From: Pegea sp. RAD2-039
Lineage: Eukaryota > Chordata > Thaliacea > Salpida > Salpidae
Assembly: GCA_034620365.1 (NCBI GenBank)
Contig: JAQGEQ010000380.1
Coordinates: 4,203,587-4,267,586, forward strand
Reading direction: 5' to 3'
Length of the DNA stretch: 64,000 bases
Position 1 is the first letter of the stretch, and each line of letters opens with the position of its first letter. Of the stretch, positions 16,079 through 64,000 are shown piece by piece. A model generated the notes under the pieces. That model was not told where the DNA came from. It did no database searches and saw only the letters and a program-made list of their open reading frames with translations. The position numbers were made by a program, and so were the translations under genes.

Positions 16079-16099
16079 GTTTTAATAAGAATACAGTTG

Positions 16100-17606
16100 A
16101 TGATGGCAAATAGTCAAGCAATCGTGGTCGATAATGGCACATTTGAGACAAGAGTCGGACTTGGAGGTGACAGTAGTCCTAAATCAGTGTACAGGAGCGT
16201 CTTAGATGGAACTTTATACGGAGAAAGTGCTATTCAAAAAGATGAAGATGTAAGAAGTCCATATTCAGATGATTCTACAAATTGGCAAGATTTCGAATCA
16301 TTGTTAAAGTTTGGTGTTGAAGATCAACTAAAGCTTAAAGACTTACAAAGTCGAAAGATGTTGATGACATACTCATCATCTCAAACTAAAGTTGATCTTG
16401 CTAAGATGTTTGAAGTTTTATTTGAAAAATTTGGAGTTGAGTCTGCTTATACTACAATGCAACCAGTACTAGCCATGTATGCTTCTGGGCGTACAACAGG
16501 CCTCGCCGTAAACATTGGTCATAGCTACACTAGTGTAGTTCCAATCTATGAAGGTTTTCCTTACCCAGAAGCAAATGTGAACCTTAATTACTCAGGAAAG
16601 AATCTAACTGATTACATCATTAAGTCACTGAACAAGAATGAAGACACAAGTTTTTTTTTGTACGATCAATATGATAACATCAAGAAAAATTATTGTTATG
16701 TTGCAAGCAATTATACAGAAGAAATCAAAACCGTTGAAGAGAAATCCTATCAGCTGCCCGGAGGAGAGGTTTGTTGTCAAAAGTTTTATTATTTTTTTTA
16801 ATATTATGTTTTTATTATTTGTGAGAATGTGTATTAGCGAGAGGTGCTCTTTTCAGGTACCCTCCTTTGCATTTATTTAAATAAATAAAATAAATAAATA
16901 TGGTTTATTAAAAAGCAAGTAATAAACAAAAAGTTAGTTTACTTTGTTCTTAAAAGAAGCTAACTATATAACTAATCAATAAATATCTTGAAAAACTTAA
17001 GTATAAAAGTGGAACAAATAATGTTGTTACTAACCTTTGCTTCATCTTGGAGTAAAGTTTTAAAACAGAGCAATTATTAAGAACTACATTTTTGCAAAAA
17101 GCTAAAGATAAATGATCTCAAAATGAGATGAAAGTTTTTTACTTTAAAATCCATCAAAAAGCTTTTATTTTTATAAAATCATTTTGCAACTTTCAACATT
17201 GTTCTGTTACTTTCAGGAAGTCCACATCAAAGAAGATCGAATAAAAGCTCCTGAAATACTTTTCAATCCGTCTTTGATTGGTCTTGACGCTCAACAATCA
17301 CTACATGAAGCTTGTAACTGGAGTTTACGTCATTGTGATGTTGACATCATCAAACCGTTAGTTGAAAATATCAAACTTTGTGGTGGAAGCTCTCTCATTA
17401 CTAATCTATCAGAAAGATTGAAAAGTCTTATACTCCCAGATCGAAATTTAAAAACAGATATTATTCCAACCAAATCAACAGAAGAGGTTTGGATTGGAGG
17501 ATCAATTCTTGCTTCTTACAATGATTTTCAAAAACATTGGATCACTTCTGATGTATATAAAGAGCTTGGAGCTCTAAGGGTTAGCAACAAATTCTTGAAA
17601 ACTTAA
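16100..17606 (+). CDS. Divergent actin-like protein with degenerate ATP site
   Basis: Two exons, 16100-16768 and 17217-17606 (phase 0), encode 352 aa against 375 for actin. Actin-fold landmarks are clear: VVDNG at 9-13, MYASGRTTG at 126-134, VPIYEG after 146, LCGGSSL, and WIGGSILAS near the C-terminus. Aligned to actin, the first phosphate loop reads DNGTFETR instead of DNGSGMCK, so Gly15 is Phe and Lys18 is Arg. The second phosphate loop reads NIGHSYTS, losing the Asp154 and Asp157 equivalents (N138, H141). About 17 residues spanning the DNase-I loop are missing, and the tail ends NKFLKT instead of HRKCF. A splice acceptor ends at 16078, 21 bases before the ATG. It is not one of the conserved ARP classes that I can recognise; I read it as a lineage-specific actin paralogue unlikely to hydrolyse ATP or polymerise normally. 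Confidence 0.85.
16814..16901 (+). mobile_element. LINE 3' tail or SINE copy in actin-like intron
   Basis: About 88 bases matching the 3' end of the LINE at 46.75-48.47 kb: a GTGAGAATGTGT core, a GCGAGAGGTGCTCT block, then CCTCCTTTGCAT and an (AAATA)n-type tail. It lies in the single intron of the actin-like gene, in the gene's orientation. Only the tail is present, so it is either a severely 5'-truncated LINE copy or a SINE sharing the LINE tail. Confidence 0.75.
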
Positions 17607-19740: not shown

Positions 19741-22700
19741 TTAACCTGTGAAAAAGTTCATTTTTAAAATACTTGTTGGTTTCAATAAACAAATTAAATC
19801 AAGAAAAAAAAGAGAAATGTAGAAACCTTTCAATGTAGCCATGCCAGCTCTCATCATTTCATCAACTAAGAGGACATTAGAGGCAATAATACAACTGGAA
19901 AAAGGACAGATTTTTAAGATGAAGTTTGTATCAAAAACTCACCTAGAGTTAATAATTTGCTTCATGACACAATGATTATCAACGATTCCATCACTAACAG
20001 GAAGAATGACATCACCTAAAATAAAATCAGTTTTTAAGTATCAGCTACAAATTTATCATTTTACAAAACTAAAAATTGGGAAATTATTAAAAGTTCTTTT
20101 TCTGAAGACTACCATCAACAAGCCAACAAGTATTATCTTGTAATCCTTCAAAACTTCAAACTGCACTACACACTGTAGAAAACTGGTCTACGAACCGCAA
20201 GCTCAGAAACCAACTCACAAAGTCTGAACTTATAACTTTCTCTCGTAGACCAGCTGCAAATTGCTCACTCAAAATACCAACCAGCTTTGTTGGTTTACAA
20301 ATCAAAGTTTGTCGTGTAGCCAATCGCGTCATGAACTTACCGGTCTTCAGTTCAACTCCAACAGGAACTGATGATGAAGCAAACTCTTGTTTCAACTTCA
20401 CGATGGTTTCTTGTGGATCAAGACCGGAGTTTTGGGCAAGAGTTTTTGGTATGACCATGAGAGCGTCAGCAAAAGCCTGAAAATAGATTAAAACCATCGT
20501 GAAGCAATAAAGTATGACTCTACTTATTTTTAGAGTTTGATTAAAACCATCAAGTACCTGGACACCGAGTTGAGCTCGTCCTTTTACGCTCGATTTGAAC
20601 TTCATTAGAGCATCATGAGCAGCAACTTGGAAACCACCAGCTCCAGGAACCACACAATCTAGAAAAACCATATTTGCAAGAAGTAGAAGAAACACTAGAA
20701 GGAATTACGAACCATCATCGATGGCATTCTTTACAGCTCTTAAACCATCACGAACAGCATCTTTGATTTGAGCGATCGTGTGTTTGTTAGGTCCTTTTAC
20801 GAGGATTGTAACACTTTGAGGGTTTTGGCATTGCTCAACAAAAGTATACTTCGATTCACCCTGATTACAAAGATTTGTTCAGATTTCAATCAATTAACAG
20901 TTTGTAATTTGATAGTTGACGATGTTAGCTGAAACTAGTATGGATGGCAGAGTAGAAGCAAGATCGTCTCAGAGAGTTGATCATCTCAGAGAGTCTGGTT
21001 TCGAGTGGAAATTGTTTGATAAATGGAGTAGACAAAATTCTACGGAGAACTATGGGGCTTATAAGATTTCTATTGTAAGCTGTTAGAAGCAACTAGAAGT
21101 AGGCATCTTCTAAGCACCTTCGACCACTAAGCGCAAGGTTTGATTGCATGATAAGTTTTTTGGGGATTTGATTTTCTTAGCTGAAAAGTTCATTCAGATC
21201 AAGGTGGTAAAATGGCTTTTTACTAAATTTGCTTTTGGTACTTGAGATTGGAGTCATGGTCAGGTAGTTTACGAGCTCAATTAGAAAATGGTTAACAACA
21301 AAATGAATGAGATTGTAGCATCTTCAACATACCAGCACGTGTTCATACACTAAACCAGCTTTCCCAAGACACTCGGGTGTAAGTTCATCGACTGAGTTCA
21401 TCGCAGTTCCCCCACAAGCTAATACAAGTCTCTCCATGTTGCGTCTTTTAGCTCTTCGCAAAGCGACAATTCCATTTTTGGCTAACATATCAAGTGACAT
21501 TGGGTCGATTCCCTAAAATAAACAATTATGTTTGCAAATGTCAAAGATAAAACGACGAAATACCTTCTGATTGATCAGTACAAAGCCTACGTCACTGTCA
21601 CCACTGGAGTTGCAAACCTGTAACAGCAACAAGTTGAAGTAAAGAGCTGACGAAGAAGTGGAAGACTCACTTGTTTCTTCAACTCAATCACTTTGTTCAC
21701 TTTATCATTTGTAAAGCTTCGTTCAGCTTCCACTAACTTCTCTCGCTCTTCGGCAGATTTATAGAAGAATCCGGAATTGACCTCACTGAAAATCATCAAC
21801 ATCTTCATTTATTCATCTGATTTCAACAATTTCAAAAGAAAAAATATCAAAAAGCTACAAACCTTTTCTCATACTCCATTGAGACATTACAAGTAAGAAT
21901 AAAAGCGTTTTCAACTCGCTTCTTCATATCAGGATGTCTAGCTCCATGATCCATGACAATTCCATTAATCAAACTGTTAAAAAATAAATAAACAAGTGTC
22001 AACAGCAAAACGACAATTTTAATATTTGATAACAGCTTCTTATACATCAAAAAAATTGTCAGGTAAAAAAGTTGAAGACAAAAGATATTTTGCTGTGGAT
22101 GGTCAAGTTTTCAATTTTCACGAAAATTCATCACCTTGTATCACAGTCTAGTTTATGTTGCATGTCCATAATCTCAACCATATGAAGATTGATCTCTTCA
22201 TCATCTTTTTTAACAGCAAGAACTGCATCAACTACTATCTCAGTTAGTTGATCAGCTAACTTATGATGGACTTTAGTATTTAAAGAAGTTTTAGCAACAT
22301 CTAGTAATCTTTGTCTAGTAGGTTTAAGATCAACTTTAATTGAGTCTAAAACTTGTAAAGCTTTTTCACGGGCAAGTTCAAATCCTTCGGTAATAATGCG
22401 AGGATGGACGCCCTACAAAATCAACGTTTGTTTGAAAATTAGTGTTGAGATGTATCAAGTTAGAAAAATTGAAATTTATTTAGATTATAAAAACTTTTAT
22501 TATAGAAGCATACACTAATTTTAAAGTGATTCTTTGTTAGATCTTTTAGAAGTTGATAAGTTCTCAGCACCTTTAAGCACACGATTTATATAAGTATTAA
22601 CTTTTTTTGGCCAAGGAGTTTTGTTACATCATTCCAAGCGAGTACTTGAAGAGCTTTAAGTTATTACTTATGAGCAAATTAATTAATTATTGATGAAAAT

Positions 22701-28048: not shown

Positions 28049-29074
28049 TTATTTTAATGGAGGGTCCATTTTAGTAATCTTCAATTTATAGTTCCCTATA
28101 AATTTCTTTATAAAAGAAGATCTCAGCAAAAGAGCTTGTAGCAAACCAAAAGAACTAGAACAAAACCAATATAATGCAACAGCACTGGGTAATTGTGATG
28201 CTATGGGTATCAAACATACACATAAAGCTCTAGATATATTAGCTAACCAAAAATTACTTTTTGGTAATCCATGCATTTCAACAATAGCTAAGTTGATGAT
28301 GCAAGTCAAAATTGGTAAAATATAAAAGGAGTCTGGTTGACACAAATCAGTAAACCAAAAAAGACCTTCAGTGGAAAGTTGATTGTATATATTTAACATT
28401 TCTGTTGTAATGGAAGACCGTTGAAGAAACAAAGTTAAATCTCTTATAGCAAAAGACATACTGACCCAAATAGGTACTTGAAACCAGATTACCATATAAC
28501 GTTTAAAGAAGCCAGGCGGACTCATTTTTAATTTAAGTTCTCTCTTATGACGTTCTAAATTAAGCAAAAACTGGGTTTTTTCAGTCGTAGAATCCCAGTT
28601 ATTCTTAATACTTTCTTTTCTTAGTTCTTTTTGTAGACTTGCATTCAGTAAAGTCAATGTTTGATAATAAGGTACCATCTTTGCTTGATTTTTTCGGGTA
28701 TAAATCATTAATGGAAATGTAATAAGAGAACGCAGAGAAATAGTAACTAAACTTATTGTAGCCCACCAGGGTAGCCCTAAGTCATGAGTAGAGATTAGAG
28801 ATGTTTCAATACTTTGAAGAAATGATGAATCAATAAATTTTTGTAAAAAAATATCAGAAAAATCTTCATTACAATGTTTTCCATATTCCGGGAGAGATTT
28901 AGGATCAATAGAAGAGCAGATCACATTACTAGTATGAATCTGATTCTTTTGAAACACAGCAATACATGGAACTTTTGTGATTTGTTTATGTATAGACCAA
29001 CTTTGTTTATAAGTAATGAAGTTACTATATATAGATAAATATTTAGATGTTAACAATTTTTGACAACGAAACAT
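28049..29074 (-). CDS. cox18: COX18, mitochondrial YidC/Oxa1-family insertase
   Basis: Inserts the C-terminal domain of COX2 into the mitochondrial inner membrane. One intronless frame of 341 aa. Residues 1-60 are rich in K, S, T and R with few acidic residues, as expected of a mitochondrial presequence. The YidC/Oxa1 core runs from about 95: LPWWATI and the first membrane segment with ITFPLMIYTRKNQAKM, a coiled KELRKES-NNW hairpin, then MVIWFQVPIWVSMSFAIRDL, GLFWFTDLCQPDSFYILPIL, and the last segments IPIASQLPSAVALYWFCSS and LLQALLLR. The core order and spacing match COX18 rather than OXA1L. It lies 330 bases downstream of SDF2 on the same strand. A splice acceptor is placed 38 bases before the ATG. 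Confidence 0.92.
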   Translation of the reverse strand: MFRCQKLLTSKYLSIYSNFITYKQSWSIHKQITKVPCIAVFQKNQIHTSNVICSSIDPKSLPEYGKHCNEDFSDIFLQKFIDSSFLQSIETSLISTHDLGLPWWATISLVTISLRSLITFPLMIYTRKNQAKMVPYYQTLTLLNASLQKELRKESIKNNWDSTTEKTQFLLNLERHKRELKLKMSPPGFFKRYMVIWFQVPIWVSMSFAIRDLTLFLQRSSITTEMLNIYNQLSTEGLFWFTDLCQPDSFYILPILTCIINLAIVEMHGLPKSNFWLANISRALCVCLIPIASQLPSAVALYWFCSSSFGLLQALLLRSSFIKKFIGNYKLKITKMDPPLK

Positions 29075-29111
29075 TTCAAATTAAATAGATTTAAGTTTTA
29101 TAGAAATTGAA

Positions 29112-29403: not shown

Positions 29404-30057
29404 TTATACTTCATCATCAGATGGCTTCATGAAAACTCCTTCGACAGTTTTCCATTTTTCATTATTACCAGATCCATCTAAGGTTACTATTTCATGTTGA
29501 CCAGGAATAGGTCTTCCAAAAACTTGGTTAGTACAAGATAAATGTAGATTAGTTTCATCATGTTTCAAATATACAAATTGATCTCTACGCCAATGATCAC
29601 CAGAGCATTCAACTACCCAATTATCTAGGTGGTCACCTTCTCCATTCTCCCCAAAACAGCTGACTTCAAAACCATTACTTAATGGAGCACTGAAATGATG
29701 ACTGTGTAAGTTGCTCTGGGTGTTAAGATGAGTCAAACGGATTTTTTGGCCACATTTGATTGGTGTACCACGAACTAAAACCTCATCTGTAGGAGATCTA
29801 ACTTGCCAATAACTGTTTCCATCTTCTTTTTTCTTCATTCCAGTAACAGATTGCTGACCACTACCAGATCCATACTTCACCTCATGAGAATGAAGTCTAG
29901 CCCCAGAAGCTTTGTTTAAAAGTTTAAAAGAAGATCCAACAGTGACTAAATCATAATGAAAAGCTGAAGTTGGTAGAAACGCATTGTTAATAAACACCAA
30001 GTAAAAGAAAAGTATTTTTAGAAGATATGATGTAAACTTCCCTAATGTAAAGGCCAT
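29404..30057 (-). CDS. sdf2: SDF2 / SDF2L1, ER MIR-domain protein
   Basis: An ER-lumen chaperone component working with ERdj3 and BiP. One intronless frame, 217 aa. A hydrophobic signal segment is at about 8-32 (KILFFYLVFINNAFLP). Three MIR repeats follow, with the family motifs VTVGSSFKLLN, LHSHEVKYGSGSGQQSVTG, SYWQVR, LTHLNTQSNLHSH, EVSCFGENGEGDHLDNW, WRRDQFVYLKH and the end EKWKTVEGVFMKPS. The protein ends DDEV with no KDEL-type retrieval signal. The codons at the stop (GAA GTATAAGTG) could also be a splice donor to an undetected last exon. An acceptor ends 8 bases before the ATG. Confidence 0.95.
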   Translation of the reverse strand: MAFTLGKFTSYLLKILFFYLVFINNAFLPTSAFHYDLVTVGSSFKLLNKASGARLHSHEVKYGSGSGQQSVTGMKKKEDGNSYWQVRSPTDEVLVRGTPIKCGQKIRLTHLNTQSNLHSHHFSAPLSNGFEVSCFGENGEGDHLDNWVVECSGDHWRRDQFVYLKHDETNLHLSCTNQVFGRPIPGQHEIVTLDGSGNNEKWKTVEGVFMKPSDDEV

Positions 30058-30065
30058 TTTTCAAC

Positions 30066-46749: not shown

Positions 46750-48466
46750 AGCTTGCATTTACAAGTAAACACCCCAGATCAGATCCCAGCTTTCTTTTTA
46801 AGAAAAACTACTTCTTCCTTATTTTAAAAACCTTTATCGCCTTTCTTTAACATGACTATGAGGTGAGGAAGAGTTCCACAAATTTGGAAAAAAGCTATTA
46901 TTACTCCAATTCATAAAAAGGGTCACAGAAACACCACACTTAACTACAGACCAGTTTTGCTGACTTCACTTATCTGCAGAACTCAAGAGCATATCATTTA
47001 CAATCATATGACCAGTCATTTGATGGAGCACCATCTAATATCTGATGTTCAGCATGGGTTTGTGAAACGGAGATCTTCCCTGACTCAACATCTTACTTTT
47101 CTTAATGAGCTTACAGCCCACTATGAAAGTAATACTCCTTGTGACATCAAATATCTCGATTTCGCTAAAGCATTTGATTCTGTCCCACACACTAAGCTCG
47201 TTACTGTATTGAAAAACTTCAAAATCAACATCTTTATCTTACAATAGATTGAAGATAACTTATCAGGTAGAACCCAACAAACTCGTGTAGAAAGACCTTT
47301 ATCTACTTCTAGTCAAATCACTAGTGGTGTTCCTCAGGGTTCTGTTCTGGGTCCCCTTCACTTTTTAGTTTTCATCGAAGACCTCATCAGAAGACTAGTA
47401 GCAGTAGATGATATCAGTGTGTTTGTGTATGCAGATGATATCAAGCTATTATCTTGTAATCCTTCAAAACTTCAAACTGCACTACACACTGTAGAAAACT
47501 GGTCTACAAATCCTCCCCCAAGCTCAGAATCCAGCCCACAAAGTCTGAACTTATAACTTTTTTTTCGTAAACCAGCGGTAAGTTCCTTGAACCAATACTC
47601 CATCAATGGATTTATTATTCAACGAGTATCTTCGGTCCTAAACCTTGGCATTACTTTATCATCTGACTTTAAATGGCGCAATTATGATTCCAAAATCTTT
47701 GAAAAATCAATCAACCTTGTCTTCCTTATTATAAAGACCTTTAATTCTAAGGACCCATGCTTTTTTATCAATCTTTTCAAATTGTACGTACGTTCAATTC
47801 TTGAATACAATGTCAGTGCATAGATGCCATACCAAGTTAGTGATATCAAAAAAATCAAATCTGTTCAGGCCACATTTACGAAATTAGTATGTAGGAAACT
47901 TAATATTAAATATGATAGTTATAAACATCGTCTCAGTTTATTCAATTTAGATACTTTGGAAATCCAACGGATTAAATACGTCTTAATTCTTATTTTAAAA
48001 ATTATCTACAATTTAATTGACCTTCAGTTTGAAGATTTCTTTTCCATTAGTCCTTCCCTCAAGTTATATCACCTCAGACGACACACATTTCACCTTACTA
48101 AGCCTATATCACCTAGAACATTGGTCAGAGCAAATTTTTTCTCATACCGCACAGTTAATGCATAGAACCAGCTGCCATCAGACATTACCATGTCGAAGTC
48201 ACTCGCGTTGTTCAAAAAGAAGTTGAACCGTTATAACATCGCCAACATTGTCATTTCTAAACTGTAATTTTTTCTCTATTTTATATTATTAACATTCCAT
48301 GTAATTGTTCACTGTTAAATGCTTTGAGTGCTATAGAAATGCCCATGTGTTACATCTTTTGCTTTCTATATTTTTGACTAAATGGATGTTATTTGTGAGA
48401 ATGTGTGTTAGCGAGAAGTGCTCTCTTCAAGTAACCTCCTTCGCATGCATTATAATAAATAAATAA
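46750..48466 (+). mobile_element. Broken non-LTR retrotransposon (LINE) with reverse transcriptase
   Basis: The 5' end is truncated within ORF2. The reverse-transcriptase fingers begin near 46770 (TPDQIPAFFL), then WKKAIITPIHKKG, NYRPV, LISDVQHGFVKRRSSLTQ, palm motif YLDFAKAFDSVPH (47150-47190), GVPQGSVLGPL (about 47324-47356) and YADDIKLL (47428-47451). The thumb and C-terminal part, in a shifted frame, runs to about 48265 with the typical LGITLSSDFKW and YVRSILEYN. Stops at 47245 and 47821 and a frameshift between about 47500 and 47590 inactivate it. The 3' UTR ends in a conserved box (48388-48450) and an (AATA)n tail. Motif spacing suits the CR1/Jockey-like group. Confidence 0.9.
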
Positions 48467-54900: not shown

Positions 54901-56332
54901 AATTTTGTTTGTGTCGCGCTTTTGTACAAAAATAAAGAAAACCAAACTATCAAAAGTAATCTGTCAACAAACAAACTGAAATCTGTTAGATTATCATTAA
55001 TGATTAGTCTAGTATTATAGTAACGTAAAATTTGAGCTTTATCAGAATAAACGAATCAAAAAAATGTATTCTGTTTTTTGATGAGAAATATATTAAAGTA
55101 ACACCAAACTATAAGTAAAAGCAACTTTCAATAATAGTTCATCTAGAACTAAACTCTGCTTGTTCGATTTAGTAATTACCTGAGTATATTAATTCTTACT
55201 TCAACTAAACATTTGACTTTATTTATACCAACATGAATAAAGCATATAGCTGTAACAATTTTGCACATGAAAACTTCACATATAATTTTTCATTTGGTAA
55301 GTTTAAATGATTATTTTGACTTCATCGGCTTCAGTTTATCTTCAATTTAATAACACCATAACCACATCAGTATAAAGCTCTGCACTAAATTTATTATTAT
55401 TCGACTTTATTTATAGCTCTGTAAAAGCATTTTATAAACTCCATTTGCTTTGTAACACAGCATACCAGTAGTTGAACTAATGAGTACTAAATGACTTTGC
55501 TACGTAACTGTTGCATATAAGCTCCACAAGAAATTTCTTCTTTTGTACAAAATCATAGCATAATTACAACATAAGTATATCCGTTTTAATTGCATCATCA
55601 TATTTGTTTATGTTTACTAGTTGTACTCATCACACAACAAAATTATTAAAAACTTTTTTTTTCTTTTATGTTTTTATTCCTTTTTTTATATTTTCAATGT
55701 ATGTTGGAAAACAACTTTTAGCTTAAAAAAAATTATTATTTTACCTCTTTAAAATAGCTGCTAAGCGTCTACTGTTGGAAGCATTAAAAGAGTTTATAAC
55801 AACAGGATAACTTTTGCAATAAACTGTTTGTTTGCTATTTAGAACATTTTTCGTTTTTGCAGAATTTTCAGATAAGTATGATGAAAACATCTATTTTGTT
55901 TTCTAGCGTGATTCAAACTTTGACCTTTATGCAACGACACATGCTCGAAGCCAACACAGAGTACAAAGTTTAGTAGAAATATATTTGGGTCGACTAAACT
56001 TCTTCACTTGTAAACATTTCAGCCAACGATTGTAAAATGAGAAAAAGTATATTTAAATAATCTTCAGTTTAATTTGGGTGCTTACAAATTTTGCAACGAA
56101 ACACTATGCCTTTCATAAATCTCAGATTCTCTAAAATTTAAAATGTTATTAATTTGAGCTACAAACTCTAAGCTCTTCTGTAACCATATAGAATAACTCA
56201 TTTACAAAATTCCAAAAACGGTCGAATTTAATATAGTATTTTAATTACAAATATATAACTGAAAAGATTAACTTTGATTGGGGCAACATAAATTAAAAAT
56301 TATTAGTTTTGATAAAAGTTAGTTTAAATCAT
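51922..56332. other. Extremely AT-rich intergenic stretch
   Basis: The longest gene-poor interval, with very A-rich plus-strand sequence at 52-54.3 kb. Open frames at 54387-54623 and 54808-55020 are low-complexity and not splice-bounded. No RNA gene or repeat match seen. It should include the Rab8 promoter and the ferritin 3' UTR. Confidence 0.5.
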
Positions 56333-57771
56333 TTAGAAATTTTTATCAAACAAATAGTGTCCAAGTGAATCATTCTCAGATTTATCCAGGTTTTCAAGTG
56401 TTTTCACATAATTAGCAAGCTCCTTAGTATCAATCATTTGATGTCCCAAAAATTCATGAGAAATCATCTCCGCAAGCTGCAAAGAGTGAGGATTCAAAAA
56501 TGTTGTCATAAAATGCTTGTTATCTCTCTAAGATACTACAAAGACTTAGATGATGCAGAACTTTACTATTTACAAAACAATTTTTGATAAATTTTTGATA
56601 AATCAAAAACTTCTGTTAAAAAGAAATTTTCTCACTTCAACATATTCAAATGATTCGGAACAGTCTGTTTCTTCATCGGTCAGATATTCATTAATAGTAA
56701 CTTTAGAACCACCGCTTACAGTGATTAAGATTGGTTGGCTCTTTGACAACGAATTTAGTGTCCTCGTTGTAGTTCCGGTTGTTGGCACTTTCATAGCATT
56801 ACTAGAAATGAAATTATCAATCAGCAAAGCTATTTAAAATTCATTTTTTTAATAACTGCAGCTGATAAAACATTTTTTTGATAGTTACTTCATTAGTTGA
56901 GTTAGACTTTTAGTGATAAAAATTTCCACTTGTTTGGCACATTGAAAAGCTTTTGTGATATTGTCGATACTTCCTGCGCATTTATTTTGTTTGTATACCT
57001 GCATACCAGGGTAAAATTGCTTGTTAAAATCAGATACTAAAAAGTATTCGTATGAACAGGTATATGTAGGCTAGTTAAAAGTTCAACTGTTTAAAAAATA
57101 CTGTTGAAAGTCATAATTTTTTGAGGCCAGATGTAAATGGAGGTTAAAAGATTAAACTTAATTAAAATGATAATAACTTCAATAAAGCTCAAAACGTTTC
57201 AATTTTGATTTAGAAATACATTTGTAAATACCGTAACACTGGAAGGTACATAGTTTCCCCCTCGTTGATTCTGGTATTGGATGAAACGCTCAGCATGTTC
57301 CATTTCTTCATCAGATTTTGCTCGAAAAAATTGAGATACTTTGGGGTAATACGATTTGTAATCGTTGAAAAGATAAGACTATAAGACAAAGTAATATTTG
57401 TTAAAAAAATGGTAATTTAAAAGGTTATTAAAAATACCAGCTTCAAATAAGTGTAATGAGCTTGGAGCTCCAGTTTGATCTGATTATTGAGAAGATCATT
57501 CATTTTTTCGTCAACTTTTTGAAAGCATGCTGTCTAAAGTAGAATTATACCAGTTAAGCAGAAGATGTTATTGATGGAGTAGTAAAGATTGTTATTAAAA
57601 ACACTTAACATCTTAGCACTTAATTCGTAATTTATAGTTCAAAGTCTGATTAAACTGATTTTAGTTGCTTTAACGAGGTTAGTTCCCGAAATTATTACCT
57701 ACTTTTGTAATACATTCAACTTCCTGGTTTATTCCGATCAATAGAATACTTAGAATAATAAAAGACTTCAT
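56333..57771 (-). CDS. Secreted ferritin with enlarged helix C-D loop, 6 exons
   Basis: Exons 5' to 3': 57771-57703, 57533-57438, 57378-57232, 56998-56889, 56801-56636, 56476-56333; 243 aa (typical subunit about 175-230). A signal peptide is visible at 1-20 (MKSFIILSILLIGINQEVEC). Ferroxidase residues are kept: E45 and Y52 (E27/Y34 of human H chain), E80 and H83 in SDEEMEHAERF (E62/H65), E129 in AKQVE (E107), and Q209 in FLGHQ (Q141). So this is an H-type, catalytically plausible chain sent to the secretory pathway. Exon 5 encodes about 55 residues (142-196), rich in T and S, where other ferritins have about 20. No CAGUG iron-responsive loop is seen in the short region upstream of the ATG. 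Confidence 0.9.
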
Positions 57772-59940
57772 TTTTAACCAATTAAAAATTTAACCTTAAG
57801 TTTAGTAAATCGAAAAAATAATATTTTTAAATAAAAAATCTTTTTTAAATTGAAAAATTTTCTGATTATTACGTTGATTACATCTTAAAATAGTTTCTAC
57901 ATAAAATTTTTGCCTACATATCATTTACTAAAATGAATGATTATATACTTATAATTGACATAAGATTTTTAAATAAATTGTCTACATAAACCTTAATAGT
58001 CAAAACTAAATAAAGAAATGTTAGACATAGAAACAACTTCATTTAAAAGATAAATCCTAAACTTGCATTTTCATCTTTAAATCATCATATGATTTTGTCT
58101 AACTTTTTATAATCTTATATACTACCACTCTTCGTATGTCAGCATAAACATCCATGGGTTCAAAGGTCATTATTCGTTTCTAAAGTCTTAATGTGTTTTT
58201 AGTCTTAGAGCTTTTAATTTCAAAACAAACTTGAGCTTAGTTTATTTTATTTAAAAATGTTAAACGTTTTTTAAATATATATTTGATCAAAACTTTAGAC
58301 TCATTTTTAGAACATCAATCACAGACAAATTAATTTACTGCATAACCTCTGAAAGGTAGCTTACAGGGAAATAAATGATTTCAAATAACGAAAAATTACT
58401 TTTTCTATTTAGATAAAAAATGGGCAAATAAATTGTACTGTTATAGTTTATATTTTACAAAAACTGGAAAGTATTCAGATACCAACTTGCACAAATTTAA
58501 ACTGTACAATGATGATGTTAGGTTTTTTAAATTAGGTTAATTTTTGACCCAAATTGTGATAGAAGGATAAAATAATGTATTTTTTAAAAACGGTCTGATA
58601 ATATTTAATCAAACTTTTAAACTTAAAAGTATGAGAAGTAATAATACAAAAGCTATATAATAATATGATAATAATATAATAATGGCTTTGTGAAAATAAA
58701 GATGTTTTTTTGCCAACAAGATTAAGATTATTTTGTAGAACTCATTTGTAGCCAATCAAAATCTTTCTATAAGCAGTTTAAAAATTGAAGCTTTTAAAGT
58801 TTAGTTTTATAGATCTCTATTTTCAGCTGTGATAAGCTCATAATAGAATAAGGATCTAAATCTAGATTAAAAGAAATTAAATCACTTAACAACTTCATAT
58901 TTATTTTTCATAAATTATTTAACTATAACTCGTCATTCTGAGATTAATTTTATTAGTAGAACATAAAGCTCTATTTACAAACGAATAGTTTCAGTGAATC
59001 TGATTGCGTTAACTACTAACAGTCAAATATTTCAACTCCAGCTCTTAATTAGTTCATAAGTAGATTTCTCTAACATTTACATTCTAAAATTAAAAAGCTT
59101 AAAGTATTGTGGTCAACAACTTTCTTGTTGTTTTAGCTTGTATTAAAAACTGCAAAATAATCGTACATTGCTATGTACTTTAAAACTGTTTCCTGAAATT
59201 AATCTTGTAATAAATCAAGATTACCTAGACTATAAAACCTCAAATCATATTTCATCATTGATTTTTTAGCCTGAAATTTGAGCTCGGAAAATATTTTTTA
59301 AAGATTTTTAATAATGTGAGTTTGGAATTTTCGAAGAATTATTCATTTTTTAAAATAATCACTCGACTGATTCTGCTACATTACGGTTTTTCAAACTCCC
59401 TATTTTCCATCAGGAAAATTTCAACTCCACCTTTTTCATTCCCTATACTCTGTATCATCATTTAATAAAGTTAGTTCGAGGACTATCTTTGATGTCGTTT
59501 TATCACCTCTATTTTTGAGTGTCCTATAACAACTGAATAATTTGTGATTTCCGAAGATGCGTTAGATAAAATAAATATTCATGTCACTATCTGGGTTACT
59601 TTAAAAGTTTCTGTTTTATTAATTAGTTGGAAATTATTCTAGAGCAGAGATAATAATCATATTTGAAAGAATAATTGAAATTTAAACTTTATAAAACAAC
59701 GTTTATGCATTTTACAAACTTCTCAGTAACCATATAATTTCTAAATATCTAGTAACGTTAACCAACTTATCTCAGTAAGTTTATGGTTAGAAAAGTTTTC
59801 AGATTGTTTCAAAACACAAAATTTCATTATTAGTTTTATTATTGTAGATTATTATAAACATTTACATCTTTGAAAATACTTTTATAAAGTTCATGTCTTT
59901 TTTAATCACTTTATCATAAAAACAGTCTGCTCTTTCTAAA
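57772..59940. other. Intergenic, no gene recognised
   Basis: Upstream region of ferritin and AT-rich DNA up to the repeat cluster. Positions 59370-59530 are less AT-rich but have no coding frame that I can support. Confidence 0.5.
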
Positions 59941-60035
59941 AACGCCTTACACCAAACTACAGATAAATCACACAAATTTTTACAATTTAATAATTTATTG
60001 CATTTTAAAGGATATTTTACTTTTAAAAAGAGTTA
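59941..60035 (-). repeat. Direct copy of the secreted-protein gene's 3' end
   Basis: About 95 bases matching 62079-62170 in the same orientation (TTACACCAAACTACAGATAA, then a TTTTACAATTTAAT block and TTATTGCATTTTAAAG), with roughly one difference in eight by eye. In the gene copy this segment holds the poly(A) signal, so this looks like the 3' end of a lost minus-strand paralogue. Confidence 0.8.
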
Positions 60036-60048
60036 CAATTCAAGTTTT

Positions 60049-60288
60049 CACAACACTTGAAGAACGTTCACGTCTAAACTACGGAAGAAGATTAAATAAA
60101 ACTTAAAAGCTTTTAATTAAAACTACTTGTACTTCTGTGACGATCACCTCTTTATTATCTCAAGTTATATCACTTAGCATGAAGTTAAATCCTTTATATA
60201 GCTCAAACTTTCTAACTGTTTTTAACAACGTGATAATAATTAAAAGTAATTTGAATTCTTGCTTTATATATAGTTATCAAATTTATTT
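60049..60288 (+). repeat. Inverted copy of the secreted-protein gene's promoter
   Basis: A 240-base segment that is the reverse complement of 63406-63645, with about a dozen differences by eye (about 95 percent identity). It contains the same TATA-like TTTATATAG (60192-60200) and the CGTTCACGTCTAAACTACGG block. It is oriented to drive transcription rightwards. The match stops just before the splice acceptor and ATG of the gene copy. Confidence 0.9.
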
Positions 60289-60727
60289 GAGTTGCTAACG
60301 CTAAGAAGCTTGTATCTGACCTAACTAAAAAATATCCAGTTCGAGGATAAGGTTTGTAGCAAATTTCAAGTTTCTTCAAACTTACTTTTGAACATTGTTT
60401 TTAACTATGAGTTGTAAACGATAAAAATACTTCAAATCTTATAAAATTTTGAAAAATAAATTGAAACCATGACTTTTAAACTAAACTTTTACTCAAAAGC
60501 TTTGAACTACGACTATTTGCACTGAATTTAAGATATTTCTTTCAACTATCAGTGATATTTGCTGAAATTATATTCTTTAGAAATGAATTTCTCAAACTCA
60601 TCAATAGAACAAACTGAAGAAAAAGTTCACAAACTATTTTTATTTTGTTGCTGGTTTAGCATAAGCAAAGATGAAGTTCATGGTGTAAGCTCAGTTAGAA
60701 GCTAAATACAATCTCAATAGAAATGGT

Positions 60728-61386
60728 ATGACTGTTAGCATTAATGCTGTACTATTCTTACTGATTTTGAGATACATGTGATTAATTTATTTTTTTATTA
60801 TACTGGTAAAAACATTTTATGCCAAGAAAGTCTTATTGACATTATATATCAAAAAACATGTTTAATTTTTCGTTATAAATCAAAGTTTTACTTTCGGTAG
60901 TAAATTGGGTTGAAGCAAATACCCTAAACTATCACAAGTTGAATTTCTTGTTGATGCCGACTATATCGAACTGATAAAGATTCACTACAGTCCTATTATT
61001 AGGCCGTGTTAATAGTTTTAAACAATTTTCTGATCTTATTTCTAAATTGAGTTATTTGTAGGAGGGAAGAAACGTATTCCTTGATGACAAAGAACAACTT
61101 GCTGATTTAGCATTTGGTTGATATTACAAAACGCATCTTTTATTCATAAAATAGTTATTATAAGAAAAGAATGAGTAAATATACCATGAGTCACTTACAT
61201 AGTATTGGCTTTAATTACAAAAAATAATTTTTATAAAAACTACAACTTACTCTGGAAAAACGACAAAGAGACAAACAATACAATAGACTGGAAGATCTTT
61301 TAGGTGTATCAAATGCTAAGCAGAAACTTGGTCGACGAGCTCAAACGTCTTATAAGCGAGATAGATTTGTCCATCCTGCATTTTAA
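60728..61386 (+). CDS. Speculative two-exon short secreted peptide
   Basis: Possible exons 60728-60777 and 61287-61386 (phase 2) give 49 aa. The first exon encodes a signal-like MTVSINAVLFLLIL. The second encodes a well-mixed frame with LEDLLGVSNAKQKLGRRAQ, SYKRDRFVHPAF and a stop. A GRR sequence (amidation plus dibasic cleavage pattern) is present, as in the neighbouring gene. It lies downstream of the rightward promoter copy. Both splice sites are weak (GTGATT; pyrimidine-poor AATAG). Other splice-bounded frames at 61063-61122 (EGRNVFLDDKEQLADLAFG) and 61412-61543 (starting ESLDVQKDFGMNKELQ) compete, so the true exon structure, if any, is unresolved. Confidence 0.2.
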
Positions 61387-62078
61387 AGTTTGTATAATAT
61401 TACTATCATAGGAATCTCTCGACGTGCAAAAAGATTTTGGGATGAACAAAGAGCTTCAAAGTAAATATCGGTTTTTGAAGCTGATATCTCTGAGGAAATA
61501 TCTCAATTTGACAGCAAATGCTCAAAAGATTGAATATTTAGTTTGAAATAAAAAAGTGAATCAATTTTCAGTAGAATAATCAAAATGATAAATCAATATC
61601 TCAGGTGATTTAGTGAAAAATATCTTGAACAGTTTTTGCAAACTGTATTTTGTATCAATTCACCTGACCTAATTAACAGCTTTACACTGATATGGGTAAA
61701 AGCTTTTATATAATTCAACATTCGTATCTCTTTGAGCAATTCCTTAAAAACAAATGAATTGAAAAAAATCCATGAAGATAAAAGCAAGTATTAAGTTTTT
61801 AGTGTAAGAAATCTTAATTAGTTAATCAAATCCGAGTAAGCATTAAATATAAAGCTTCCATGATGTTTTTACTACTTATTTGAAACTTTCTTGAAACCTA
61901 AGATGAAACTAAAGTTTGATAACTTGTAGTCTATATATAATACTAGACTACTAATATGAAAATAAATGGAATTTTAACAGATTAGGTAATTGATTATTTC
62001 AAGTACTAATAATACTATTATAATATTAGGCTGCATCTTGAAACTTGTAACTATTGTCAAAAAACAATATACTGGCTT

Positions 62079-62170
62079 GTAAACTACTTTACACCAAACT
62101 ACAGATAAATGACAAAAAGTTTTACAATTTAATATTTTATTGCATTTTAAAGATATTTTACTTTTAATCG
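62079..62170 (-). repeat. 3' end of secreted-protein gene, repeated at 59941-60035
   Basis: Contains a minus-strand AATAAA (62141-62136) about 140 bases after the stop codon, a good poly(A) signal. The segment is duplicated in the same orientation about 2.1 kb away. Confidence 0.75.
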
Positions 62171-62279
62171 AATCAGAAAGAATTTAAACAAATCTTGAAA
62201 TGTGAGTTTCCTTAATAAAATTTTGACAAAATACCAAGACATCTATGGTTTTTTGGAAATACTTTTTTCATCTGATAAT

Positions 62280-63390
62280 CTAGTTGTCAATTTCAGAGTC
62301 TAGTTCATCGACTGCTTCTTCATCTTCAAAACCATCACTCATATGATTAGCTGTTAAAGAAATTAAAAATGTTTAAACTGACAGATTTCTTATTAAATGT
62401 AATCAGACAACAATAAGTTTAGACTAAACATAAATAAAACTATAATTTTGTTTAGAGATTGAATTAAAATAAATAAAATCAGAAGTAATTTTTATTAAGT
62501 ATTACCTTCTGATGATTTGATGAAGCTGTCTATATCTGTTATCATCGTTTGAGCTTTATTTTCACCAAATTGGTCCTTTATGTTATTATACAAAGACGCC
62601 AAAGTATCTCCATACTCATCCTGATCAAGTGAGCTCTAAAATAAATAAACTTGCTATTTAGTGACAGATTGTCTTAACTGAAGATTATAACAAAGATTTT
62701 GGAAAGTTTTGTTGCTGAAACATAGCTTATCCTTCTGCTGATTTTTTATTTCAACCAAGTAACTTACATCTTCTAGTTGCTTATTTTTATCCCCAAGAAC
62801 CACTCTCATAAAATGATGAATACTAGGCTTTGTTCTTCTTCGACCTTTGAAAAGTCTTCTGATGCTGTTAAGAGATAAAACAATTATTAAAAAAACAAAT
62901 TTAAAACATCAAGGTTATTTTTAAAAGAAATTCAAACCAGTGTATTTGAAAATTTAAAATGGCTTCAAAACTTTATACAAGTTTTTAAAGCAGGTGAAAT
63001 TTAGCTACCTTAAGTAAAAATTGCTAGTTTTTTTGGAAAAGACTAAACACCGCCACCAATAAAAGTAGTTTGCTTAGCACAGTTTTATCAGCAAGGTTAG
63101 AATTTGTTCACATGATAAGTTTTCATAGACTTAAACTATTTCATTTAGTACTGCAGTTCATGACTCTAATATAATAGAACTCCTTTTTAATCAAACTTTG
63201 TTTTGTAGATTGGAACCTGACCCAGGATCAGTTGTTGCTTGAAAATCATAGATTTATAGAATTGTCAGACCAGCACTTAGTCATAAACGATCAAAATAAT
63301 ATAAAGAACTTACAAGGCAGAACTCCAATCGGCATCACAAGTTGAAATCAGACCCACAGCAACCAATAAGATGATTGTTTTGTAATTCAT
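62280..63390 (-). CDS. Small secreted protein, basic N-part and acidic C-part
   Basis: Exons 5' to 3': 63390-63314, 62864-62768, 62635-62506, 62350-62280; 124 aa, all junctions in frame with good donors (GTAAGT, GTAAGT, GTAATA). A signal peptide at 1-20 (MNYKTIILLVAVGLISTCDA) is followed by DWSSAFIRRLFKGRRRTK (21-38). That segment is strongly basic and has Gly-Arg-Arg-Arg at 33-36, the pattern used for prohormone cleavage and C-terminal amidation. Residues 59-100 are neutral to acidic; the tail 107-124 is very acidic (GFEDEEAVDELDSEID). There are no cysteines in the mature part. I recognise no family. It could be a peptide-hormone or cationic-peptide precursor with an acidic pro-region, or a secreted structural protein. 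A TATA-like element is about 107 bases upstream and an acceptor ends 12 bases before the ATG. Confidence 0.75.
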
Positions 63391-63405
63391 TTTCGGTGAT
63401 TGCTG

Positions 63406-63645
63406 AAAAAATAAATTTGATAAATATATATAAAAGAAGAATTCAAATTACTTTTAATTATTATCACGTTGGTAAAAACAGTTAGAAAGTTTGAGCTATA
63501 TAAAGGATTTAACTTCATGCTAAGTGATATAAGTTGAGATAATAGGGAAGTGATCGTCACAGAAGTACAAGTAGTTTTAATTAAATGATTTTAAGTTTTA
63601 TTTAATCTTCTTCCGTAGTTTAGACGTGAACGTTCTTCAAGTGTT
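63406..63645 (-). repeat. Promoter region of secreted-protein gene, inverted repeat arm
   Basis: The right arm of the inverted duplication with 60049-60288. It spans from the TATA-like element and upstream blocks to the base before the acceptor of the first coding exon. Confidence 0.9.
63497..63504 (-). promoter_or_regulatory. TATA-like element of secreted-protein gene
   Basis: Reads TTTATATA on the minus strand, about 107 bases before the ATG at 63390. It is conserved in the inverted copy (60192-60199), and the surrounding 50 bases are unchanged between copies. Placement suits a start site near 63470, not verified. Confidence 0.5.
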
Positions 63646-64000
63646 TTGAAATAAGAAATACATTTGACTAATCATAAACTATGAAAGATGGTTTTTCTAT
63701 CAAGAAAAAATCTAAAGAAATTTTACTTAGTTAATGATTTTTGAATTGATTCAAATTTTTGAATATCTTTTTAAATTATGGACTACATAAAACGTTAAAG
63801 TCTAATTAGGGACAAATGTGGTGTAGAGTGCTAACAGTGTCCAAATATTCATATTCTGACCAAAATCATCAGAGGTGACATAATTGTTCAATTAAAAAAA
63901 TTGTCTGATTGAAATTAAAAGCTTCCGTTTAGTATTTATATTTCTTCCGTACTTTAGGCTTGCGTATTTCAATCAAGCAAACTATTTAACTAGACAATTA
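63646..64000. other. Right flank, no gene recognised
   Basis: AT-rich. A weak echo of the promoter block occurs at 63944-63968 (CTTCCGTACTTTAGGCTTGCG versus CTTCCGTAGTTTAGACGTGA-type at 63610-63632), in the same orientation. Confidence 0.4.

Follow-up and report, generated by a model that had tools for sequence, protein, structure and literature searches.

What is a second copy of a promoter doing in a genome when it points backwards and has left its gene behind? The question is raised by the far end of the window, the whole 64,000-base stretch of DNA analysed here, which takes in the final 64,000 bases of the 4,267,586-base contig C6, so that the end of the window is also the end of the contig. 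Two inverted arms of 243 nt, at 60046-60288 and 63409-63651, align without gaps at 232 of 243 positions (95.5%), as found with a repeat finder and BLASTN, and lie 3,120 bases apart. Positions 59901-64000 contain 277 inverted 14-mer matches, whereas 100 mononucleotide shuffles gave 2.6 on average and never more than 12, which excludes chance for the arm pair. The outer flanks of the pair are the remnant of a gene's 3' end (E3rem) on one side and an upstream block (U) on the other.

The initial annotation had placed the arms a few bases off, at 60049-60288 and 63406-63645, and had described the inverted copy as a promoter duplicated up to the splice acceptor of the first coding exon. The copy is real, and in the alignment it halts a few bases short of the TTTCAG acceptor. 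With 95.5% identity, the arms are also well above the 90% below which the case for a recent event was said to weaken. The direct repeat of the gene's 3' end that had been noted beside the copy is real as well (75 of 80 bases identical between 59947-60026 and 62089-62167) but shorter than the 59941-60035 first given. It is better regarded as an older remnant than as a duplicate of the end of this particular gene, since it matches each of the six 3' ends of the gene family about equally well (74-76 of 80). The spare backwards promoter copy is most readily understood as what duplication, inversion and deletion have left behind in a small gene family.

This family was traced through a search of the 105.7-Mb assembly (387 contigs) with the 240-base arm at E values up to 0.001, in which repeat counts are lower bounds. 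The arm occurs at at least eight places that are clustered with one gene family and not dispersed, which answers the whole-genome search proposed in the initial annotation. Two of the places are in the window, three on contig C44 (4039, 687066 and 688696) and three elsewhere on C6 (2218994, 2231716 and 2243567). A complete gene of the family (family 1) follows the arm at six of the eight, the exceptions being the copy at the left of the window pair, P', and C44:688696-688898. The 243-base arm is, as far as can be read from its sequence context, the promoter and leader region of family 1. The three C6 genes near 2.2 Mb all point in the same direction and are 12.7 and 11.9 kb apart. N makes up 601 of the 20,000 bases compared near C44:0.69 Mb and 1,751 of the 40,000 compared near C6:2.2 Mb.

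P' is not the only truncated promoter. One of 204 bases at C44:688696 keeps its TATA core, while a ninth piece, 41 bases long at C44:6184-6224, has lost the TATA part. Both face the 3' end of a family gene.

Table 1. Features of the window that bear on the inverted promoter copy, followed by other coding stretches.
Feature	Position	Strand	Evidence or remark
G1, family-1 gene	62280..63390	-	Intact frame in 6/6 copies, shared GT/AG sites
G1 coding exons	63390-63314, 62864-62768, 62635-62506, 62350-62280	-	124 aa in total
G1 3' end block	62089-62167	-	
P1, putative promoter and leader of G1	63409..63651	-	Same block precedes 6/6 gene copies
E3rem, remnant 3' end of a leftward family-1 gene	59947..60026	-	75/80 to 62089-62167; 74-76/80 to five other 3' ends
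P', putative orphan promoter and leader, rightward, without coding part	60046..60288	+	232/243 to 63409-63651; TATATA core kept
Fragment of family-2 last coding exon and following bases, joined mid-exon to P'	60289..60369	+	Matches at 14 other places
X, mosaic filler without long open frame	60289..62019	.	Partial matches; longest unspliced ATG frame 40 codons
U, upstream block	63669..64000	.	Orientation to P1 the reverse of that in six other copies; reaches the contig end
Stretch common to window and C44:1-3994	56012..60005	.	Differences: substitution at 59944; gap of one base at 60003, at the junction
3,994 bases missing from the C44 version	60006..63999	.	Junction comparison; 2-base TT ambiguity, either side
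Actin-related coding stretch	16079-16801	+	
CCT-zeta-like coding stretch	20156-20704	-	
OXA1L-like coding stretch	28049-29080	-	
MIR-domain coding stretch	29404-30060	-	

All six family-1 copies, G1 in the window and five others, have four coding exons, use the same GT/AG sites and keep a frame of 124 residues intact, and it is on this identity of open frame and splice sites that the model of G1 is based. By eye, all six proteins begin with a signal-peptide-like stretch. The promoter and transcript start would be marked by a TATATA, also placed by eye, that is conserved some 100 bases ahead of the acceptor. A Pfam search of the family-1 protein returned no family over the cut-off and two weak rows far under it (E 0.056 and 0.13), and the best row in a search of solved structures had an E value of only 0.3. 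Distant relatives are found on C83, where nine stretches match a by-eye query at 34-38% identity.

The exons of family 1 are conserved relative to the introns: among the six copies, 15 of 375 coding sites vary, compared with 111 of 735 in the introns and 36 of 290 in the 5' region. Ten of the 14 variable codons alter the residue, and the pattern within the exons is by itself no proof of selection on the protein. Third codon positions vary at 6 of 125 sites versus 111 of 735 in the introns (Fisher p = 0.001); for fourfold sites alone (2 of 36 variable), the difference is not significant (p = 0.15). The exons may have been homogenised or constrained at the DNA level.

The window has a GC content of about 26%, taken as the mean of 16 blocks over its whole length, and an Rfam search of it found no family. 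Its introns and its OXA1L-like and CCT-zeta-like coding stretches point to a eukaryote. A search for the COX1 family returned no match, and two spliced-leader patterns, bdelloid rotifer and nematode SL1, were likewise without a match. A broken LINE-like reverse transcriptase lies at 46867-48162 on the forward strand, with Pfam RVT_1 pieces at 46867-47244 and 47248-47553, and stretches related to it adjoin the gene family on C44 (6787-8149) and on C6 (2215245-2216884).

The end of C6 falls at the edge of U, a block that occurs at full length at seven places in the genome (82-100%) and as ten further short partial matches. All six of the other full-length copies run, from the side that corresponds to position 64000, into the promoter flank. 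The join takes the form AATTA-ACTCACC, with single-base differences just before it in two of the copies (C6c1 and C44b2), and the U of the window ends in AATTA with its last base at 64000. The flank itself, an exact 17-base sequence (AACTCACCGCTGTTGAA), has seven genomic occurrences, six of them adjoining U and the seventh at C44:3995. Conversely, six of the seven full-length copies of U adjoin this flank, and the seventh is the end of C6. There is thus one U end without a partner, on C6, and one flank without a partner, on C44, and the two open ends fit together. The reversed orientation of U relative to P1 would be due to its belonging to the next promoter, P2.

U is not a uniform block. Weak relatives of the part at 63675-63852, ten in all and each only partial (70-82% over about 60-150 bases), are found on ten other contigs; U therefore does not belong exclusively to the family and may contain older dispersed sequence. 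The 120 bases at 63881-64000 have 35-base inverted ends that are 77% complementary, and they are conserved at 92-95% compared with 82-87% for U as a whole. This smaller block was considered as a miniature inverted-repeat element and rejected, since all seven of its places adjoin a family promoter or promoter piece; it is a possible upstream control element.

At its other end, the affected region is bounded by a stretch that the window shares with the beginning of C44. After this stretch, C44 carries AACTCACCGCTGTTGAA, followed by a full promoter and a gene, G2. Base 3995 of C44 matches the base at window position 64000 and is followed by the U-to-promoter junction seen with all six other copies of U. 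Further on, C44:4013-5662 aligns with window positions 63671-62020 at 1,589 of 1,653 positions (96.1%). C6 and C44 thus have a flank in common that is nearly identical, and the broken end fits exactly; most probably they represent one locus in two versions, a long one and a short one. On the simplest reading, C6 would run on into C44:3996. The long version would then consist of E3rem (pointing left), P' (right), the filler X, G1 (left), U and G2 (right), and G1 and G2 would stand head to head around U as an imperfect palindrome with 1.65-kb arms of 96.1% identity. In the window, E3rem has 21 further family-like bases (60006-60026) that are absent from C44, and because the remnant extends further into family sequence on C6, C44 would be the deleted form.

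The overlap might also be explained by a recent segmental or tandem duplication of 56012-60005, so that the tail of C6 and the head of C44 would be separate places. This would account for there being one substitution in 3,994 bases and for the presence of both copies in the assembly. However, each overlap is situated at the end of a contig, and C6 breaks off at the very base where the promoter flank of C44 begins, a pattern better accounted for by two paths through an assembly graph than by two full loci. Separate places are consequently considered unlikely, and such a duplication would leave the orphan promoter a scar of the gene family all the same. There is less to be said for a misassembly of the last 4 kb of C6. 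Their position at a contig end within a repeated gene family invites such a suspicion, but some substitutions in P' are absent from all other copies in the alignment, and parts of X have no match in the genome search. The tail of C6 has therefore not simply been stitched together from other assembled copies, and the probability of a misassembly appears low.

P' itself is 95.5% identical to P1 and 95.9% to P2, compared with 89.2-93.5% for the five other copies, and its sequence suggests that it arose within the local branch of the family. What follows it is foreign. Beginning with its very first base, X matches the last coding exon of another gene family (family 2) at 14 of 18 non-self places, on C10 and C6. 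In the six loci inspected, of ten compared, it is family-2 exon, not promoter, that lies to the left of the junction, which places the join to P' within the exon. The filler from 60289 to 61990 has partial matches on C10, C44, C6, C5 and C42, while other parts of it are matchless.

Family 2 is a multi-copy family of small secreted-protein-like genes (...VANAKKLVxDLTKKYPVQG) located on C10 (0.48-0.66 Mb) and C6 (3.04-3.55 Mb). By eye, its last coding exon is similar to exon 3 of family 1. In Pfam, the peptide of this family-2 exon yielded a single below-cut-off row, to DUF659 (E 0.0031, 17.7 bits versus 34.7).

Could P' nevertheless still be active? An antisense transcript directed toward the 3' end of G1, about 1.8 kb away, would then tune or silence the family in the same cells. 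This is quite improbable, but if true, leftover promoters could provide a recurrent form of antisense control with the same pattern of expression, and one absent from chromosomes that carry the short version. The initial annotation had also raised a capture of the promoter, by which a second, rightward gene would have acquired the same regulation. P' does retain its TATA core and most of its leader, and the exon sequence of the other family follows directly. However, what follows is an internal piece of exon joined in the middle of the last coding exon, positions 60216-60406 contain no ATG, and no unspliced ATG frame starting in 60216-62020, before the next gene, exceeds 40 codons. Since P' also stops ahead of the acceptor, no second gene is visible, and the suggestion has to be given up as very improbable indeed.

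The third suggestion, a foldback or other transposable element with long terminal inverted repeats, agrees with the 243-base inverted arms and their spacing and with the weak relatives of part of U at ten other places, but is scarcely credible given that no dispersed copies of the arm were found: it is the promoter region of conserved genes, present at the eight places found, all in the clusters of one family and six of them at intact genes, while the 120-base block with inverted ends likewise keeps to family promoters and their pieces at all seven of its places. A flip-flop inversion by way of the two arms, which would make C44 the flipped form, was rejected: a counterpart of X was not found in C44:1-20000, the gene on C44 has 96% rather than about 100% identity to that of the window, and one deletion explains the junction.

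It is probable, then, that the locus is a rearrangement scar in a small secreted-protein family, with C6 and C44 representing two versions of it and P' an orphan relic. This agrees with the recombination scar of a tandem gene family that was among the first suggestions, and it is borne out by the eight arm matches in family clusters and by the two additional truncated promoters. The repeated block belongs to a family of six intact genes, and truncated copies of it are joined to unrelated sequence. In the proposed course of events, an earlier breakage of a rightward gene copy would have left P' as an orphan, and a single end-joining deletion that removed P', the filler, G1 and P1 would have produced the C44 version. 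The paired arms would have no function as a pair, and the orphan P' is probably inert.

Some observations sit uneasily with a scar of this kind. E3rem is joined to P' in the window and to the promoter flank on C44, and on E3 no more than about 20 bases separate these two joins, a coincidence that independent events would leave unexplained. A misassembly might account for one or other version, or a very recent duplication, in place of two alleles, for the 4 kb that they share, and the weak relatives of part of U at ten other places also count against it.

Read as a scar, the locus shows how such a family turns over: copies are inverted, promoters orphaned and a stretch lost by end-joining deletion, with both versions apparently present in one assembly. 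In practical terms, the fit of the open ends suggests that C6 and C44 adjoin, and a copied promoter alone is no ground for annotating a second gene.

Structural heterozygosity in long-read assemblies gives rise to overlaps at contig ends, for which read depth is the usual proof. The present case appears to be like such overlaps in that the ends of two contigs are nearly identical base for base up to a structural difference, where the contigs diverge.

The VCY palindromes of the human Y chromosome are described as gene-bearing and as having high rates of structural variation (PMC6790999). They resemble the present arrangement in having near-identical gene copies in inverted order, but the arms here are 1.65 kb long and 96% identical, and a different contig supplies the presumed second arm. 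Foldback priming at double-strand breaks is described as leading to inverted duplications (PMC10622511). It is a proposed route to inverted copies; at the present locus, the analysis covered junction sequences. Gene palindromes and inverted duplications are of a known kind, and the locus is a case of ordinary genome dynamics.
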